Part shown: positions 22,613 to 30,342 of the stretch, piece by piece
Numbering within the stretch: position 1 is the first letter of the stretch
Layout: the number at the start of each line of letters is the position of its first letter
Virus record (IMG/VR): IMGVR_UViG_3300025108_000204
Coordinates: 1-33,456 of that record
Reading direction: 5' to 3' (one strand)
DNA: 33,456 nt
Origin: a virus
Notes under the pieces: model-generated
Seen by the model: only the letters and a program-made list of their open reading frames with translations
Told to the model about the DNA's origin: nothing
The model's database searches: none
Position numbers and translations under genes: made by a program

Positions 22613-24751
22613 ATGGCATATAAAATTAACGGAACTACAGTTGTTGATAACAGCAGAAATGTTTGTGCTTGTTGTGTAACATCTTGCTGCATTACAGCTA
22701 GTGATAGAATGGACGTACCATCAGGTGATACAGCCAGTAGACCAGGATCTCCTGCTACTGGCTCTTTGTATTTTGACACTGACGAAGGAGCACTAGTTGC
22801 TTATAATGGTACAGAGTGGGCATCCATAGGAGCAGCAGAAGGTGTAGCAAAGTATGGGCTACAACATGGTATTGACGAGAACAGACTACAAAGCCATTGG
22901 GTTTCTTACGGAAATAATTATTCTCATGTTGGAAGTAAGATGGGAGCACAAAGTAATTGGTATACTATGTCTTGTTCAGGCAGAGATTTAGAAGGTTGCC
23001 ATTACTACTGTACTCCTGAAGGAACTCATGAAAGAACAGGAAGATGTTTATTTTTAAAATGTTGGCAATGCTGCTGTTATTCACCAGATGGTGCCTTTGG
23101 TGGTGCAAGTGGCACTTGTTTTTGTACAGCAATGAGTTTTAAAGCACACGGTTGGATACCCTCTATTAACGCAGGAGAGTATGATTCCTCTGAATTAGCT
23201 ACACCAATGTTTCATATGAGTGACGGTAATAGACAATGTACTAGTAGACCCAACACGATAGGATTTTTAAGAAAAGGATCAAATGGATGCTATTTCCTAC
23301 AGGGTAAATGTCTTTGTGTTTCTACATGCTGCTGTTTCTGTTGGATGCTTTATAGCTGTTCAGCCTGGAGATGCTCCGAATTTTCGTCAGGTGATGCAAT
23401 GGGAAAATATGGTAGTTATCATAAATTAGGAAGTAATTTTTCTTGTTGTAAATACCTCTTTAACTTTAGTACTCCTGCAGCAAGCAATGGAGTTGTAGAC
23501 AATAGTTGTAACAGTGTAGTTACCATAATGAATTGTTGGTGTCCTACCAACTTACACAACGATGTGTGTACTGCTCCTTCTGGTAATCAGTGTATGTCTC
23601 AACATGAAAGTTGTTGGACTTGTACAAGACCCTTTTTTGTAGGGGTTCAAAGAGCAGCCTACAACTGTAAGTGTAAAAGGCTTTGGTTTGCAAACAACAA
23701 AAGAATAGTAGTGATTTGTGCTGCAGCAGACGGTCAGTTTAGTTATTGCTCTTGCTTTACAGATTTCTGTTTACCAGAGTTTCCTAATACTGGTTGTTAT
23801 TTTAAGTGTAGCTCTTTTACACAGGCAGCAGCCAAGTGTGATGGCACTGGTTTATTTGCTGCAAGCCAGAATGGTATTGATCAATACTTAATGCAAATGA
23901 CTTCAAATACAGTGTCAGCTTGGCACTTTAAAGGGGGAACAAACTCTAACACGAATGATTGTTTGGCTGTTCACTTTACTCATATGGATTGTGATGGTTG
24001 CATCCACGTATTTTTAAATTCGACTTGTTGTGCATCTGGTCGATTTCAATTTTACCAGTTAATCTTAAATGGGTGTGGAGGTCTTGAAAATAATTCAAGC
24101 CCTGCTGCTTGTGTTTTAACCCACAGGTTAAGACTCACTAATGCTATTGCAGGTGCAAAAGATTCACGTCTTTGTTGTTGGGAAACTTTTGAAAGTCCCA
24201 GTGTTAAAAAAGGTTGGGTAGGTGGAAGTATGAAAGTACATGGTGGGTTAAACTTACTCACAGGTTTAATAGGGGGATATAACTGTTCAAACAACAACTG
24301 CCAAATATTAAATGAGGTTTATCCTGCAGGATATCCCATTGGACCATCTTCTTGGAATAGACCATTAAACTATCCTATAGGGTTTGCTATACCTGCTAGT
24401 TTAAAAACTGCAGGAACTATTTCAGATGGGTCAAACGGAATTTGTTGGATTACGGTAGATTGTGGTAACAGCTACAGATGTTGTAATAATAATGTCAATA
24501 ATTGTATTACAGCTTGTATACAGTCTACATGTAGTTGGTGTCAAAAGTGTGCAGGAAAATTCTGTAATAACTGTGGCTATTCTCTCTACTTAGGTTACAG
24601 ACTAGGTGATAAATGCTGTGATCTTGGAAATGGAGAAAACGGATTAAAAGGCACTGGATGTGGCTGTGGAGGTTATAAAAACTGCTGTGCAGGTCCAGAC
24701 GGATATAAAGTACAAGGAGCAGGAATATCAAGGGATACCCTTTCCTTTTAG
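22613..24751 (+). CDS. Cysteine-rich tail-associated protein
   Basis: A 712-residue protein with about 71 cysteines (10%), often as CC, CCC or CxC. The N-terminal 75 residues are the attachment module shared with the preceding gene, interrupted by a CACCVTSCC cluster. The rest (from about 80) matches no family I know; it is rich in Cys, Gly, Asn and Ser with frequent Trp/Tyr, as in a beta-rich receptor-binding chain. Cys density is highest in about residues 130-260 and 600-690. The protein ends DTLSF. Neighbouring virion genes are poor in Cys. It could be disulphide-knit outside the cell, metal-binding, or a fibre tip. A GAATAGG-type site precedes the ATG. Confidence 0.85.
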   Translation: MAYKINGTTVVDNSRNVCACCVTSCCITASDRMDVPSGDTASRPGSPATGSLYFDTDEGALVAYNGTEWASIGAAEGVAKYGLQHGIDENRLQSHWVSYGNNYSHVGSKMGAQSNWYTMSCSGRDLEGCHYYCTPEGTHERTGRCLFLKCWQCCCYSPDGAFGGASGTCFCTAMSFKAHGWIPSINAGEYDSSELATPMFHMSDGNRQCTSRPNTIGFLRKGSNGCYFLQGKCLCVSTCCCFCWMLYSCSAWRCSEFSSGDAMGKYGSYHKLGSNFSCCKYLFNFSTPAASNGVVDNSCNSVVTIMNCWCPTNLHNDVCTAPSGNQCMSQHESCWTCTRPFFVGVQRAAYNCKCKRLWFANNKRIVVICAAADGQFSYCSCFTDFCLPEFPNTGCYFKCSSFTQAAAKCDGTGLFAASQNGIDQYLMQMTSNTVSAWHFKGGTNSNTNDCLAVHFTHMDCDGCIHVFLNSTCCASGRFQFYQLILNGCGGLENNSSPAACVLTHRLRLTNAIAGAKDSRLCCWETFESPSVKKGWVGGSMKVHGGLNLLTGLIGGYNCSNNNCQILNEVYPAGYPIGPSSWNRPLNYPIGFAIPASLKTAGTISDGSNGICWITVDCGNSYRCCNNNVNNCITACIQSTCSWCQKCAGKFCNNCGYSLYLGYRLGDKCCDLGNGENGLKGTGCGCGGYKNCCAGPDGYKVQGAGISRDTLSF

Positions 24752-24821: not shown

Positions 24822-25748
24822 ATGAAAACTATTTTTATGATTGATGGTGGAGCAGGAAGGGCTATTGCAGCTATACCTGCTCTTATCAAGTACTCCAAGA
24901 AAAACCAAGACTTTGGTATTATGGTTCATGGGTGGGATACTCTCTACTGGGGGATACCAGAACTTCACGATAAAGTGTTTAACCCAGATCAAAAAGGGGC
25001 ATTTAACCAATTCTTTTTAGATGCTACTGAAGTTATTTCTCCTGAACCATACAGAGTACCTGGTTACTACAAACAGGAAAAGTCTCTTGCTGAAGCTTTT
25101 GATTACTTAATTAACAAGACTGATGATCATTCAGATTTAGGCTTACCAGTTTTAAAAACAAATAAATCTGAAGAGTTACAGGCTGCTACTTTTATGCAGC
25201 AGACTAAACAACAACAACAAAAACAAAAGACTATTGTTATTCAACCCTTTGGCAGAGCAATGGAAAAGCCACAGGAGAATGTTTTACTAGATCAGTCTTC
25301 TCGTTCTATTAACCCAGACACGTATCTTAAACTTGTTAAGAAGTTAGCTACAAAGTACAATCTGATCTTGTTTGCTGAGAAAAACTTTTGGATGCAAGAA
25401 GATACTTACACTATGAAACCAGAGGCTGACTTACGTATGTGGGCAGCTTTTATAGATGCAGCAGATTATTTTATTGGTTGTGACTCTGTAGGTCAACACA
25501 TGGCTAGAGCACTAAACAAACCTGGTACTATAATTATTGGCTCTACTTTTGCCATAAATACTAGCTACCCTAACTATTTCAATATTATAGAAAAGGATGT
25601 TCAAAGAAAATATTCACCTATTCGTATCTCTGGTCTTGAAGGCCATTTAGCAGACCGTATTAACGAAGCTACTGTAGAGTTTACAGACGAAGAAATAAAT
25701 AGTATGTATGCTAACATAGTAAAAGATATTGAAAAGAAGGTGAAGTAA
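24822..25748 (+). CDS. GT9-like (heptosyltransferase-type) glycosyltransferase
   Basis: A 308-residue protein with two Rossmann-like halves. The N-terminal half begins KTIFMIDGGAGRAIAAIPAL, like the G-G-x-G start of GT-B enzymes. The C-terminal half has IVIQPFG at about 138-144 (the 'hPGs' strand), a SINPDTYLKLVKKLATKYNLILFAE helix-strand, and FIGCDSVGQHMARALNKPG (about 218-236), matching the G-x-D-S-G-x-x-H-L-A-x-A motif of LPS heptosyltransferases WaaC/WaaF, family GT9. The two halves are joined by a Gln-rich linker (near 126-137). GT9 enzymes move heptose from ADP-heptose to an acceptor, and this phage encodes ADP-heptose synthesis just downstream. The acceptor is unknown. Confidence 0.75.
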   Translation: MKTIFMIDGGAGRAIAAIPALIKYSKKNQDFGIMVHGWDTLYWGIPELHDKVFNPDQKGAFNQFFLDATEVISPEPYRVPGYYKQEKSLAEAFDYLINKTDDHSDLGLPVLKTNKSEELQAATFMQQTKQQQQKQKTIVIQPFGRAMEKPQENVLLDQSSRSINPDTYLKLVKKLATKYNLILFAEKNFWMQEDTYTMKPEADLRMWAAFIDAADYFIGCDSVGQHMARALNKPGTIIIGSTFAINTSYPNYFNIIEKDVQRKYSPIRISGLEGHLADRINEATVEFTDEEINSMYANIVKDIEKKVK

Positions 25749-27461
25749 ATGAATATCCTAGCAATTAACCCAGGTCACAATGGTTCTGCTGCTTTATTAG
25801 TAGATGGTAAACTAAAGTTTTATATCGAAGAAGAAAGACTTTCTCGTATTAAATATGATGGCAACCCATTTAAAGGAATTATTGAGGCTTTAAAGTACGG
25901 AGTTGATATCCTTGTTCTTGGAGGAACTCAGCAAGAGTTTCCTAAACTTCCTTGGACAGGAGAAGATCCTTACACTGGTCTAGTTAGAAAGTTTAATCCT
26001 AACGTTAAAATTTATAATTTAGGACAAGCACATCACTTAGGTCACGCAGCCTCAGCTTTTTACAACTCAGGCTTTGACGAAGCTGCTGCAGTTGTTGTTG
26101 ATGGATCAGGGACTAGACAGGTCATTACTGTTGACGAAAAGTTTTCTAACCCTGGTTTTGAAACTGAGTCAATATTTGAGTGTAGTTATGACAAAGATAT
26201 AAAACCTATATTTCAAACGTATGGTGGAAACCCAGACACTCAAAGAGTAATCAATGATAATGTAGAGATGGACTCAGCAATAACTATTGTAAAAGCTTAT
26301 GAGGCTGTCTCTGAGTACCTTGGGTTTGGTTATATTGAAGCAGGTAAGACTATGGGTCTTGCCCCTTATGGTAAAAAGTCTGATGAGTTACCTAACTTAT
26401 TTATAAATGGAAGGGGTGACAAAAATGTTTTTGTACCTAACTATCCTGCAGGTGCTCATGTTGATCATCCTCGTTGGGAGTATCTAACTTTAAAAGAAGA
26501 TCCAAAACTTTGGCATAAAGATCCTAGTAAAATAACTGAGGCAGCAAAAGATTTAGCTTGGGCTGTACAGGAAGAAACACAGGAGCTTGTTGGGGATCTA
26601 ATTGAAAAAGCAATTAGCATGACAGGAAAGAAGAATGTTGTTATAGCAGGTGGGTATGGTCTTAACTGTGTAGCAAACTACTACTACAAAAAACGTTTTC
26701 CTGATCTTAACATTTACGTTGATCCTATTTCACATGATGGTGGTACAGCTATTGGACTAGCTTACTTAGTTCATTACTCAGAAACTAAAGATACAGAAAA
26801 GCATCCTTTAAAAACTTTGTATCTTGGCCCTGAGAACAAAGAGACTTACGACTTTAAAGGAGTTAAAACAAAGAAAGTAAAACCTGCTGATGTAGCAAAG
26901 CTTATCTCTGAAAAAAATATTGTTGCTATGTTCCAAGGACGTTCTGAGGCAGGACCAAGAGCACTAGGTAATCGTTCTATCTTGTATGATCCCACAGACC
27001 CACAGGGTAAGGATGTAGTCAACCAAGTAAAAGGACGTGAGTGGTTTAGACCCTTTGCAGGTTCAATGATGCAAGAACACTTTGAAGAGTGGTTTGATAC
27101 TTACGGTATGAAAGAGTCACCATACATGATGTATGCAATGGACTTCAAACTAGAGAAGCATGGTGAAGTTCCTTCTATCACACACGTAGATGGTACTTGT
27201 CGTATCCAGACTGTTACCAAAGAACAGAATAAAACATTCCATACTTTGATTGACGAATTTAGAAAAATTACTGGTGTTCCTATTTTGTTTAACACTAGCT
27301 TCAACCTCGCAGGAGAACCACTAGTAGAGACACTAGAAGATGCAATGAAAACTGTTAAGAACTCAGATATTAATTATCTGTACTTACCAGATCAAGGTAT
27401 TCTTGTAGACTATCCATATAATGACTCAGTAGTAGAAGAAGTACAGGAGGAAGCTGCTTAA
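25749..27461 (+). CDS. O-carbamoyltransferase (NodU/CmcH/TobZ family)
   Basis: A 570-residue protein of the two-domain carbamoyltransferase family, which make carbamoyl-adenylate from carbamoyl phosphate and ATP and pass the carbamoyl group to a sugar hydroxyl. N-domain (Carbam_trans_N, ASKHA fold): start ILAINPGHNGSAALL, HHLGHAASAFYNSGF (about 93-107), VVDGSGTRQ (about 117-125), EAGKTMGLAPYG and GGYGLNC (about 300-306). C-domain: FQGRSEAGPRALGNRSIL (about 397-414) and PILFNTSFNLAGEPLVET (about 511-528). Family length is about 550-600. It starts directly after the glycosyltransferase stop, so the two are probably made together. Its stop interleaves with the stop of the next, minus-strand gene. 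Confidence 0.92.
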   Translation: MNILAINPGHNGSAALLVDGKLKFYIEEERLSRIKYDGNPFKGIIEALKYGVDILVLGGTQQEFPKLPWTGEDPYTGLVRKFNPNVKIYNLGQAHHLGHAASAFYNSGFDEAAAVVVDGSGTRQVITVDEKFSNPGFETESIFECSYDKDIKPIFQTYGGNPDTQRVINDNVEMDSAITIVKAYEAVSEYLGFGYIEAGKTMGLAPYGKKSDELPNLFINGRGDKNVFVPNYPAGAHVDHPRWEYLTLKEDPKLWHKDPSKITEAAKDLAWAVQEETQELVGDLIEKAISMTGKKNVVIAGGYGLNCVANYYYKKRFPDLNIYVDPISHDGGTAIGLAYLVHYSETKDTEKHPLKTLYLGPENKETYDFKGVKTKKVKPADVAKLISEKNIVAMFQGRSEAGPRALGNRSILYDPTDPQGKDVVNQVKGREWFRPFAGSMMQEHFEEWFDTYGMKESPYMMYAMDFKLEKHGEVPSITHVDGTCRIQTVTKEQNKTFHTLIDEFRKITGVPILFNTSFNLAGEPLVETLEDAMKTVKNSDINYLYLPDQGILVDYPYNDSVVEEVQEEAA

Positions 27462-28105
27462 GGTAGCCTCTCTGCAAACTGAAGGAGACTATCAAAAACC
27501 TTAGTCTTTTTTCTTAGCTTCTCTTTTGAGAACTTGTTTAAGTCTTCTTCAGTTTTTAATCCATATCCAGTTCTAACTAATATAGGGGTAGCTCCAATAC
27601 GTTCAGCAGCTTTAAGATCAGACATCTTATCTCCTACATAAAAACCTTTATCTTTAAATCTAATCTTTCCATTAAATATTTCTTTTTCTGTTCTGTGAAA
27701 CATACCAATGTTAGGCTTGGCATAGTAGTCTGTTTTAAGAGAAGACTCAGAGTAAAATAAACCATCAATAGAATAGATACCTGCGTTACCAAAGATCTCA
27801 AACATACGTTGATGAACAGCCTCTACCTGCTCATGTGTTTGCAATCCTTTTGTAATACCACCCTGGTTAGTAAGTATAACTACTTTGTATCCTTTAAGAC
27901 GTAACTTAAGAATAGCTGCTAGAGATTCAGGGTACACCTCAAAGTCATCAGGGTCTGTGATGTAATGATCTCTGTTAACATTTATTACACCATCTCTATC
28001 TAAGCCTACAATAGACTTAGGGAAAACTTTAGGCCAGTCAGGGGGTAAGTCTTGTTGAGATTGTTGACTTGGTTCTTGATCAATAATATGTTTAAATCTA
28101 GACAT
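27458..28105 (-). CDS. gmhB: GmhB/HisB-type HAD phosphatase, minus strand
   Basis: A 215-residue phosphatase predicted to act on D,D-heptose-1,7-bisphosphate (7-phosphate removal). Motif I is G-L-D-R-D-G-V-I-N (Asp36, Asp38), motif II L-T-N-Q-G-G (Thr79, Asn80), motif III K-P-N-I-G-M-F (Lys130) and motif IV G-D-K-M-S-D (Asp159, Asp163); the DRDG-V-I-N and TNQ-G-G forms are typical of GmhB/histidinol-phosphatase HADs. The usual Cys/His zinc loop before motif III is absent and the protein has no Cys at all. It has a 30-residue N-terminal extension rich in Gln/Pro/Ser. It is the only minus-strand gene in the window and shares TTAA with the gene before. The symbol rests on context. Confidence 0.82.
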   Translation of the reverse strand: MSRFKHIIDQEPSQQSQQDLPPDWPKVFPKSIVGLDRDGVINVNRDHYITDPDDFEVYPESLAAILKLRLKGYKVVILTNQGGITKGLQTHEQVEAVHQRMFEIFGNAGIYSIDGLFYSESSLKTDYYAKPNIGMFHRTEKEIFNGKIRFKDKGFYVGDKMSDLKAAERIGATPILVRTGYGLKTEEDLNKFSKEKLRKKTKVFDSLLQFAERLP

Positions 28106-28121
28106 ATTGGACTACTGCCTC

Positions 28122-28532
28122 ATGAAAAAAGTTTTTGTTAATGGTGCATTTGATGTGCTGCACTCTGGACACTTAGATCTCCTTGATTTTGCTAGTATAC
28201 TAGGGGGCAGATTGCTTGTAGCTATTGACACAGATAGACGTATTGAGTATAACAAGGGGAAAGGAAGACCCTTTAACAATCTGTCAACACGTAAATATAT
28301 AATGTCTATGTTAAAGCCTGTCAATAGTGTAGCAGTTTTTGATACAGACGAAGAGTTACTCAGTATTATACGAAACTATAAACCAGACGTTATGGTAAAA
28401 GGATCAGACTGGAAGGGTAAAAGAGTAATTGGGGAGGAGTACTGTAAAGAAGTAGTATTCTATGAGAGAACCAATGGACAGTCTACAACAAACACCATCG
28501 AAGATTTTATTAGTAGGAGACAGTTGTTATGA
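28122..28532 (+). CDS. hldE C-half: HldE-type D-glycero-beta-D-manno-heptose 1-P adenylyltransferase
   Basis: A 136-residue nucleotidyltransferase, the stand-alone version of the C-terminal half of HldE/RfaE. It joins AMP from ATP to heptose-1-phosphate. Motifs: V-N-G-A-F-D-V-L-H-S-G-H (HxGH at 14-17), LVAIDTD (32-38), RPFNNLSTRKYIMSML (about 49-64), PDVMVKGSDWKG (88-99) and G-Q-S-T-T-N-T-I-E (119-127), in the same order as in bacterial HldE. Starts at ATG 28122; TTG 28107 is in frame but would add five residues before the conserved start. Only 16 bases separate it from the divergent start of the phosphatase gene. It overlaps the kinase gene by 59 bases. Confidence 0.9.
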   Translation: MKKVFVNGAFDVLHSGHLDLLDFASILGGRLLVAIDTDRRIEYNKGKGRPFNNLSTRKYIMSMLKPVNSVAVFDTDEELLSIIRNYKPDVMVKGSDWKGKRVIGEEYCKEVVFYERTNGQSTTNTIEDFISRRQLL

Positions 28533-29229
28533 TGAATATCATATAGGGACTGTCACACGAATAAGCCCTGAAGCTCCTGTCCCTATCTTTGACCTTGAGT
28601 CAACTTTAATTAAAAGGGGTATGGCTTATAATGTTTACAATAACTTGGTTAACCTAGGTGCTAAAGTAGATATCATCACAGAGTTTAGAGAACGTAAACA
28701 CAGGTACATAGATAATAAGACTGGTCAGCAATTAATCAGAATAGATGAGAAGAGAAAGGCTGAACAGGTAGACACATCAGAGGAAAACTTAAACAATTAT
28801 GATGCTGCTGTTGTCTCAGACTACAATAAAGGTTTTATTGAAGAAGGTGACATAAAAGAACTAAGACAAAAGTTTGATGGTCCTATCTTTGTAGACACAA
28901 AGAAAAAAGATTTATCTCAGTTTGATGGTTGTTTTGTAAAAATAAATCAGTACGAGTACGAACAGGCTGAGTATCTAACAGATGAGTTAATAATAACTTA
29001 CGGATCAAAGAAAGTAGAGTATAAGAATAGGAGCTATATACCACCTAAAGTAGAAACTCATGACGTGTGTGGAGCAGGAGATACTTTTTTAGCTAGTCTA
29101 ATATTTAAATACTTAGAAGAGTATGATATGGATCAAGCTATAAAGTTTGCAATGCAAGCTGCATCAGTAACAGTGCAACACATTGGAGTGTATGCACCCA
29201 CACTAAAGGAAATACGTAATGAGGCTTGA
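28474..29229 (+). CDS. hldE N-half: HldE-type PfkB kinase (heptose-7-P 1-kinase)
   Basis: A 251-residue PfkB-type sugar kinase, the N-terminal half of HldE/RfaE as a separate gene; it would phosphorylate D,D-heptose-7-phosphate at carbon 1. It starts KILLVGDSCYDEYHIGTVTR, then SPEAPVPIF (31-39), RGMAYNVYNNLVNLGAK (48-64), RIDEKRK (89-95) and V-S-D-Y-N-K-G (114-120, ATP site), with catalytic T-H-D-V-C-G-A-G-D-T-F (Asp203). All are HldE-N landmarks; the usual L-G-G-A-x-N is R-G-M-A-Y-N. It is shorter than typical HldE-N (about 315). ATG 28474 is chosen; the 28462 ATG would lengthen the overlap. Gene order is reversed relative to bacterial HldE (kinase first). Confidence 0.88.
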   Translation: MDSLQQTPSKILLVGDSCYDEYHIGTVTRISPEAPVPIFDLESTLIKRGMAYNVYNNLVNLGAKVDIITEFRERKHRYIDNKTGQQLIRIDEKRKAEQVDTSEENLNNYDAAVVSDYNKGFIEEGDIKELRQKFDGPIFVDTKKKDLSQFDGCFVKINQYEYEQAEYLTDELIITYGSKKVEYKNRSYIPPKVETHDVCGAGDTFLASLIFKYLEEYDMDQAIKFAMQAASVTVQHIGVYAPTLKEIRNEA

Positions 29230-29575
29230 AGGTTATGTAGAAAAAGGTTGGGGGTCAGAGTTTATATGGGCAACTAACGAAAAGTATTGTGGTAAGTTTT
29301 TAAAGTTTAACAAAGGTGCTAAGTTTTCTATGCACTTCCACAAAGAAAAAGATGAATCTTGGTTTGTTCTTTCAGGTAAGTTTAGATTAGTTTGGATTGA
29401 CACAGAGAATGCTGAAAGAAATAAAGAAGAGTTAGTTGAAGGAGATACTTGGCATAACCCACCTCTAGTTCCCCATCAAGTAACTTGTTTAGAAGAAGGA
29501 ACTTTAATTGAGGTTTCAACTCCTGACTCTGTAGAAGACAACTATCGTGTTGGCAAAGGTGACAGCCAAGAATGA
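29219..29575 (+). CDS. Sugar-phosphate cupin (mannose-6-P isomerase-like)
   Basis: A 118-residue single-domain cupin. Metal-site residues fit the family: FSMHFHKEKDESW gives His39, His41 and Glu46, and VPHQVTC gives His86; the GKF...VEGD...P.LVPH and EVSTPDSVEDN order is that of small cupins near sugar nucleotide genes. Its ATG lies inside the kinase gene (11-base overlap) and its stop overlaps the epimerase gene by four bases (ATGA). A role as a sugar isomerase or epimerase on the heptose or another sugar is possible, but members of this group are often of unknown substrate. Identification of the fold is confident; the substrate is not known. Confidence 0.85.
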   Translation: MRLEGYVEKGWGSEFIWATNEKYCGKFLKFNKGAKFSMHFHKEKDESWFVLSGKFRLVWIDTENAERNKEELVEGDTWHNPPLVPHQVTCLEEGTLIEVSTPDSVEDNYRVGKGDSQE

Positions 29576-30342
29576 AGATCTTAGTCACTGGTAGTAATGG
29601 GTTCATTGGTCAGAATATGGTCAATGCCCTAAAAGAAAAGCACAAAGTTTCTACTTACGAATGGGGTCAGCAGTACCCACTGTTAGATGGGCTAGACTGG
29701 GTAGTACACTTAGGGGCTATAAGCTCAACAACAGAAAAAGATGTACGATTAATAGTAAGACAGAATTTAGAGTCTTCTATTTATTTATACGAAGACTGTA
29801 TTGAAAAGGGAGTTAACTTTCAGTTTGCTAGTAGTGCCTCAGTGTATGGCATAGACCCTCCTAGCTTTAAAGAAGATGCTGATCTTAATCCACAGACTCA
29901 CTATGCTAGAAGCAAAGCATTATTTGAGCACTATATCAAAATCAGACAAGCTCCAATAGTAACCCAAGTATTTAGATACTTTAACGTACATGGTCCTAAC
30001 GAAGACCACAAAGGAGATCAGGCAAGTCCTCATACTAAGTTTTTAAAACAAGCAAAAGAAACTGGAAGGGTCAAGCTATTCAAAAACTCAGAATATTTCT
30101 ACAGAGATTTTATTCACGTAGACAAGATTACAGAGTATCATCAAAGATTTTTCTCTATACAAAAGTCAGATGTTTGGAACGTAGGCACAGGGTTTGAGAA
30201 GAGCTTTTATGAGGTTGCCTTAAGTATATGTAAGGAAACAGGGGCATCTATCGAGTGGATAGACATGCCAGAAAAATTAAAAAAGGGTTATCAGAATTTC
30301 ACTAAAGCAGATACAACAAAGCTTTGGAGAACTTTATCATGA
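29572..30342 (+). CDS. hldD: ADP-heptose 6-epimerase-like SDR (HldD/RfaD)
   Basis: A 256-residue extended SDR. It has the NAD(P) motif T-G-S-N-G-F-I-G (6-13), S-S-A-S-V-Y-G (87-93), and Y-A-R-S-K (Tyr111, Lys115). The part F-R-Y-F-N-V-H-G-P-N-E-D-H-K-G (135-148) and KLFKNSEYFYRDFIHVDKI (168-186), together with GYQNFTKADTTKL (239-251), closely follow bacterial HldD, which turns ADP-D,D-heptose into ADP-L,D-heptose, rather than general galactose epimerases. It is about 50 residues shorter than E. coli HldD, mostly in the N-domain and at the C-terminus. It ends the cassette; 17 bases separate it from the next gene. Placed after HldE halves and a GmhB-like phosphatase, this completes the pathway. 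Confidence 0.88.
   Translation: MKILVTGSNGFIGQNMVNALKEKHKVSTYEWGQQYPLLDGLDWVVHLGAISSTTEKDVRLIVRQNLESSIYLYEDCIEKGVNFQFASSASVYGIDPPSFKEDADLNPQTHYARSKALFEHYIKIRQAPIVTQVFRYFNVHGPNEDHKGDQASPHTKFLKQAKETGRVKLFKNSEYFYRDFIHVDKITEYHQRFFSIQKSDVWNVGTGFEKSFYEVALSICKETGASIEWIDMPEKLKKGYQNFTKADTTKLWRTLS

Follow-up and report, generated by a model that had tools for sequence, protein, structure and literature searches.

Why should a phage carry, among its tail fibre genes, the enzymes that make activated heptose? The question is raised by a linear viral fragment of 33,456 bases from IMG/VR (IMGVR_UViG_3300025108_000204, positions 1 to 33,456), the whole of which is called the window here. A cassette at 24822-30342 encodes a GT9-like glycosyltransferase, a carbamoyltransferase, a cupin and relatives of the enzymes of the adenosine diphosphate (ADP)-heptose pathway. 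A previous sequence-only reading had described these seven genes and offered two hypotheses, that the cassette rebuilds the host surface late in infection or that it glycosylates virion proteins such as the fibre. It overlooked the inverted orientation of the GmhB-like gene and also the most unusual neighbour, a Cys-rich tail-fibre or virion protein and putative sugar acceptor (22613-24751, plus strand), in which 71 of 712 residues are cysteines (10.0%) and whose gene ends 70 bp before that of the GT9-like protein. Cyanophages and viral heptose enzymes had already shown that phages have a heptose pathway, though not what purpose it serves. The recurrence of a GT9-like gene beside a Cys-rich fibre in several phage groups points to phages that attach heptose to fibres of their own, with cysteines as the probable sites, and that do not only alter the host surface.

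The window neighbours of the Cys-rich fibre contain 0-1% Cys, and its N-terminus matches a virion structural protein (phrog_20787). Cys-rich proteins are also found upstream of the GT9-like gene in most cassette loci, including those of the cyanophages P-SSM2 and S-CAM1, where they are little related to the window fibre; some of them have a match to PF21722, a glycine-rich fibre domain. Among fibre homologues Cys is retained at 0.84 of the aligned sites (0.61 overall) despite many TGT/TGC switches, which argues that it is selected as a protein residue. An artefact of base composition or of a wrong reading frame was ruled out by the low Cys content of the neighbours, the TGT/TGC switching and the homologous N-terminal virion domain. 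At 25-40% identity Cys conservation is 0.58, Cys and Gly being the best conserved residues of the Cys-rich fibres, and no periodicity was found in the Cys spacing of the window fibre. The window fibre, used as a query against IMG/VR, had no matches, and a literature search on Cys-rich or S-glycosylated phage fibres gave no relevant report. From their position and N-terminal domains, the Cys-rich proteins would be part of the virion; published virion proteomes cover S-SM1, S-PM2 and Syn9 (PMC3037559), phages other than those studied here.

Cys-richness tracks the GT9-like gene and not the sugar pathway. In each of the five GT9-positive cyanophage genomes (S-CAM1, S-CAM3, P-SSM2, S-SSM7 and Sf-FS3), two or three proteins with 8-12% Cys are encoded in the ~4 kb just upstream of it; S-CAM1 and S-CAM3 have, in addition, a few shorter predicted open reading frames (ORFs) with 5-7% Cys elsewhere in the genome. 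No protein with at least 5% Cys was found in any of seven GT9-negative cyanophages, either HldE-positive (S-SM2, P-TIM68, S-T4 and Sf-CH8) or carbamoyltransferase-positive (S-SSM5, S-RIM44 and S-CAM8), nor in four GT9-negative phages of the HMO-2011 type (CRP-9, CRP-2, CRP-3 and HMO-2011). The heptose pathway and the carbamoyltransferase were thus rejected as the genes that Cys-richness goes with. The HMO-2011-type contigs of the tail-protein set include 13 with both GT9 and Cys-rich proteins, 17 with neither, one with GT9 alone (L047) and none with Cys-rich proteins alone. Among deduplicated IMG/VR loci and loci from metagenome-assembled genomes (MAGs), all with at least 3 kb of upstream sequence, 83 of 90 GT9 loci reach at least 8 Cys per 100 residues upstream and 43 of the 44 with the HldE N-domain reach 10; Fisher p values for these loci ignore relatedness and should not be read as probabilities. 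Conversely, the loci located by Cys-rich fibre homology and with downstream sequence all carry GT9 (9/9), some of these contigs already belonging to the GT9 set. The association spans HMO-2011-type podoviruses, cyanomyoviruses and other T4-like phages, and the cassette contents vary, with GT9 found without the carbamoyltransferase or without HldE; two contigs (L184 and L188) combine GT9 with a 7%-Cys ORF and have no carbamoyltransferase. Independent pairs differing in Cys-richness were all concordant, too few for significance.

The GT9-like protein (24822-25748, plus strand; phrog_8954) has 308 residues and C-terminal matches to TIGR02201 (30.5 bits) and to PF01075 (20.2 bits, below the gathering cut-off of 22). 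Its sequence profile had no match in PDB; the fold search succeeded instead. The AlphaFold 2 (AF2) model (pLDDT 95.2) has the GT-B heptosyltransferase fold, and the top of the Foldseek PDB list contains only heptosyltransferases, namely WaaF, TibC, WaaC and the GT9 structure 3tov (E 1e-9 to 1e-8). The C-terminal D-S-x-x-x-H site of GT9 heptosyltransferases is kept in the family. The catalytic base is not: the Asp that follows the first strand, Asp13 in WaaC and Asp110 in TibC (which we take to be its counterpart), is missing from the GT9-like protein. Position 13, in the motif GGAGR, is Arg in 67 of 67 aligned GT9-like sequences and Asp in WaaC and WaaF, in a register of moderate certainty. 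A thiol acceptor can do without a strong base, and its thiolate could be stabilised by an Arg, which would suit transfer to cysteine. TibC itself is a protein O-heptosyltransferase that places heptose onto serines of autotransporters, with Asp110 named as its catalytic base (PMC4358343). The GT9-like family is phage-specific, with only 11 loci among 84,980 species, all of them in MAGs. The MAGs of L219-L228 are labelled as archaea, Flavobacteriales, Rhodobacteraceae and others and have Cys-rich ORFs upstream of the gene; these are probably contigs of viruses that ended up in cellular bins.

The previous assignment to the ADP-heptose pathway is supported by profiles, structures and catalytic residues. 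Profiles of the phage homologues gave PDB matches for HldD (1eq2, E 3e-74), the heptose-7-phosphate kinase (4e84, E 6e-31) and GmhB (4pnh, E 1e-26). The HldD-like ADP-heptose 6-epimerase (29572-30342, plus strand) has the GxxGFIG NAD site and the catalytic Tyr111 and Lys147 (YxxxK; HKG) invariant across 12 phage sequences, with 215.3 bits to TIGR02197 against an equivalog cut-off of 274.6. In the kinase, a short form of the HldE N-domain with 255 residues (28462-29229, plus strand), the GAGD catalytic motif and the SDYxKG motif are invariant. This kinase (132.2 bits to TIGR02198, cut-off 345) and the HldE C-domain-like heptose-1-phosphate nucleotidyltransferase (28122-28532, plus strand; phrog_7878; 102.8 bits to TIGR02199, cut-off 181.5, and recognised also by alignment) are below the cut-offs, yet these are their best NCBIfam matches. 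The nucleotidyltransferase more likely starts at the ATG at 28122 than at the TTG at 28107, which is possible too. The GmhB-like phosphatase of the HAD family (heptose 1,7-bisphosphate 7-phosphatase; 27458-28105, minus strand) has the motif I DxD within a conserved DRDG (DRDGVIN) and matches NF006506 with 126.3 bits, below the cut-off of 178. Both domains of the NodU/CmcH-type O-carbamoyltransferase (25749-27461, plus strand; phrog_1601) score above their cut-offs, Carbam_trans_N (PF02543) with 83.7 and Carbam_trans_C (PF16861) with 210.5 bits.

The coordinates and family relations of the seven genes hold, and the arrangement was found again in more than 40 IMG/VR contigs, so that it is not due to chance. 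However, the window and nearly all relatives have the GmhB-like gene on the minus strand, and the cassette is therefore not one seven-gene operon. At 27458-28122 this inverted gene converges with the carbamoyltransferase gene, the two overlapping by 4 bp. From the nucleotidyltransferase gene it diverges, and the ~16 bp between the starts leave no space for a separate promoter.

The large terminase subunit (TerL) of the window shares 89% identity with its counterpart in Roseobacter phage CRP-9 and 69% with the one in Puniceispirillum phage HMO-2011; this identity places the phage, as judged from sequence, in the structural lineage of the HMO-2011 type, in agreement with the tail protein alignment. 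A marine Rhodobacteraceae is the probable host. Among genomes of the family to which the Rhodobacteraceae MAG G019 belongs, ~5 of 100 had a convincing GmhA and one of 100 the HldE kinase, and of 31 essentially none had GT9; the probable host family would thus mostly lack the heptose pathway (GmhA, HldE) and GT9 heptosyltransferases. Small genes are followed by those for terminase, portal, coat, tail tubes and fibres, then by the cassette and a 1032-residue ORF without PHROG match. The fibre genes on the 5' side encode 1466 residues with an S74 chaperone, 71 residues and the 712 residues of the Cys-rich protein, so the cassette had been correctly placed inside a phage structural region. Podoviruses of the HMO-2011 type have the cassette among their fibre genes, and T4-like phages have it directly 5' of gp13. 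T4-like IMG/VR contigs (L195, L196, L199, L166, L174 and others) have it next to gp13 on the 5' side, as in cyanomyoviruses, with GmhB, HldD and cupin often inverted.

The previous observation that only GmhA is absent proved right and general, since no SIS-type GmhA (PF13580) was found in 27 phage records, which included complete cyanophage genomes and ~55 kb contigs. The cyanophage proteins annotated as phosphoheptose isomerase (P-SSM2, S-CAM1 and others) were rejected as GmhA, being DxDGT HAD proteins of ~110 residues. The genes so annotated in T4-GC 306 (L051:14312-14656, L050:8710-9033, L055:22642-22977 and homologues) are all of this small HAD type and occupy the place where the pathway would need a GmhB-like gene. 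Because the probable host family is mostly without GmhA, the cassette probably has to provide the isomerase step itself. The candidate is the small cupin (29219-29575, plus strand), a possible GmhA replacement or other sugar isomerase or epimerase, with Cupin_2 and MannoseP_isomer matches and weak relations to mannose-6-phosphate isomerases and sugar isomerases. Its AF2 model (pLDDT 90.9) resembles PDB folds that include D-lyxose isomerases, KdgF and OxdC and represent many activities. The cupin accompanies HldE also in phages without GT9, and the conversion of sedoheptulose-7-phosphate to D-manno-heptose-7-phosphate has the same stereochemistry as that of fructose-6-phosphate to mannose-6-phosphate. 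We tentatively consider the cupin as the isomerase that replaces GmhA.

Taken as a fibre-glycosylation module, an interpretation that we find as easy to defend as to doubt, the region would work as follows. The cupin, the kinase, the GmhB-like phosphatase, the nucleotidyltransferase and the HldD-like epimerase would convert sedoheptulose-7-phosphate to a nucleoside diphosphate (NDP)-heptose, most likely ADP-L,D-heptose. The GT9-like enzyme would then move the heptose, in the cytoplasm, to the Cys-rich fibre encoded just upstream, which is the likely target. The linkage would most likely be an S-linked heptose on cysteine side chains, although for the thiol linkage by itself our confidence falls slightly short of even. 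The carbamoyltransferase would cap the heptose; a cap is reasonable because carbamoylated heptose occurs in the Pseudomonas LPS (lipopolysaccharide) core. The end product would be a heavily glycosylated receptor-binding fibre. In this scheme we infer the donor, the acceptor, the thiol linkage, the carbamoyl position, the role of the cupin and the benefit to the phage. More broadly, GT9 may have given rise to a widespread phage-specific S-heptosyltransferase that lost the acceptor-activating Asp and densely modifies fibres of ~10% Cys evolved as its substrate, with a carbamoyl cap, a proposal that we make with some reserve. We know of no earlier case of S-heptosylation or of a cysteine-glycosylated viral adhesin.

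Of the two hypotheses put forward before, glycosylation of virion or fibre proteins is favoured because in unrelated phages nearly every GT9 has an extremely Cys-rich fibre next to it and vice versa, which is not seen for HldE or the carbamoyltransferase without GT9. Late host-surface remodelling, in which heptose on LPS or on a different envelope glycan would prevent re-adsorption or superinfection, is the published interpretation for cyanophage LPS clusters (PMC9602691) and agrees with the relation of the GT9-like protein to WaaC and WaaF. This may actually be what some cyanophages do that have HldE, HldD, cupin and several further glycosyltransferases but neither GT9 nor a Cys-rich fibre. 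For the window it is rather improbable, given that GmhA, HldE and GT9 heptosyltransferases are mostly absent from the probable host family; furthermore, it does not predict the association with Cys-rich fibres, and the location among fibre genes or just upstream of gp13 speaks against it.

The fibre could also be modified on Ser/Thr, by O-heptosylation as in TibC and AAH, with the cysteines serving separately in disulfide cross-links or metal binding. TibC, which modifies Ser (PMC4358343), has one of the nearest folds, the conservation of the fibres is highest for Cys and Gly as in disulfide-rich proteins, and the fibres at some GT9 loci are Cys-poor. Nevertheless, this would leave unexplained why proteins with at least 5% Cys are found only together with GT9 and why the acceptor-activating Asp is always replaced by Arg; the irregular Cys spacing and a conservation that is low for disulfide knots do not favour a disulfide role either. 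We regard it as unlikely. Simple linkage is the least probable explanation, a Cys-rich fibre type and the GT9-carbamoyltransferase pair having been co-transferred as passengers in hypervariable fibre regions with no enzymatic link. Fibre regions recombine readily, independent gains are few and L047 carries the cassette without a Cys-rich fibre, but the association extends over three phage groups with little-related Cys-rich fibres and persists when the cassette composition differs.

Several observations weigh against S-heptosylation of the fibre. Every pathway enzyme is below its NCBIfam equivalog cut-off, so these appear to be homologues with the right motifs and not formal equivalogs. The Asp13 to Arg register comes from matched positions and a low-confidence global hhalign alignment, the local alignment covering the C-terminal half alone. 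Contig fragments with GT9 and carbamoyltransferase (L047, L176, L182, L191 and L215) have the same Arg13 but, over their whole available length, no protein with at least 4% Cys, and further GT9 loci have no Cys-rich protein near GT9; these fragments may be incomplete or their GT9 may use other acceptors. With so few independent gains, the tree sign tests are not significant. The conserved Cys would also fit disulfides or metal sites, and the cupin could have another role, since cupin and HldD are found without HldE in T4-like contigs, for example L195.

The closest known system is the cyanophage LPS cluster of P-SSM2, S-SSM7 and S-CAM1 (T4-GC 302-308), which shares with the window the GT9-like protein, a Nol-like carbamoyltransferase, HldE-C, HldE-N, a HAD protein, cupin and HldD, and also adjoins tail fibres and Cys-rich ORFs. 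The window phage differs in being an HMO-2011-type podovirus, in having a GmhB-like phosphatase instead of the small HAD protein and in the strand of the epimerase gene. The function of the cyanophage cluster was left unknown or ascribed to possible 'stuffer DNA' (PMC3037559). TibC and AAH, the bacterial autotransporter heptosyltransferases (BAHT), share the GT-B heptosyltransferase fold and, if NDP-heptose is placed onto an extracellular adhesin-type protein, the same logic. However, the window GT9 has a single Cys and so lacks their four-Cys iron finger (PMC4358343), its 308-residue model begins at a Rossmann-like strand with no N-terminal barrel, Arg takes the place of the catalytic Asp, and the proposed acceptor is a Cys-rich phage fibre. 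From WaaC and WaaF, with which it shares the fold and the D-S-x-x-x-H site, it differs in scoring below the PF01075 cut-off, in the invariant Arg13 and in belonging to a phage-specific family. As far as the commentaries present the work of Tang et al. (2024), viral NDP-heptose enzymes have isomerase, kinase and nucleotidyltransferase activities and a phosphatase is absent in viruses (PMC11461863, PMC11573728), their role being given as unsolved (PMC11573728). Compared with the enzymes in those accounts, the window has a GmhB-like phosphatase, no SIS-type isomerase and a candidate acceptor.

Cyanophage 'LPS' genes have been puzzling, with proposals that include stuffer DNA and a superinfection block (PMC3037559, PMC9602691). 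The tight link between GT9 and Cys-rich fibres provides a specific acceptor candidate, testable on phages in culture. If true, cysteine glycosylation would join the ways in which abundant marine and freshwater phages build their receptor-binding proteins, a new glycosyltransferase specificity would be gained, and some of the cyanophage 'LPS' clusters would be accounted for, in part, by S-heptosylation of fibres.

Some loci depart from the common arrangement. The cassettes of S-SSM7 and Sf-FS3 (L055:17441-20585 and L056:13239-22520) contain a second carbamoyltransferase, several 2-oxoglutarate (2OG)-Fe(II) oxygenases and, in S-SSM7, a tryptophan halogenase, possibly for further fibre modification. 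The GmhB homologue at L032:8880-9614 (minus strand) has lost the motif I Asp (EYDG for DRDG) and motif IV (GHRMKD), with the remainder conserved, and its sequence indicates that it is probably inactive as a phosphatase. In L164 the Cys-rich ORFs (687 residues with 12% Cys and 337 with 9%) are downstream of GT9 and the carbamoyltransferase, and the contig end cuts the upstream side. Marine virus AG-345-O18 (L058) has in one record both a cyanophage-type set (HldE-C, HldE-N, HAD, cupin and HldD) and a separate set of Cys-rich fibre, GT9, carbamoyltransferase and GmhB.

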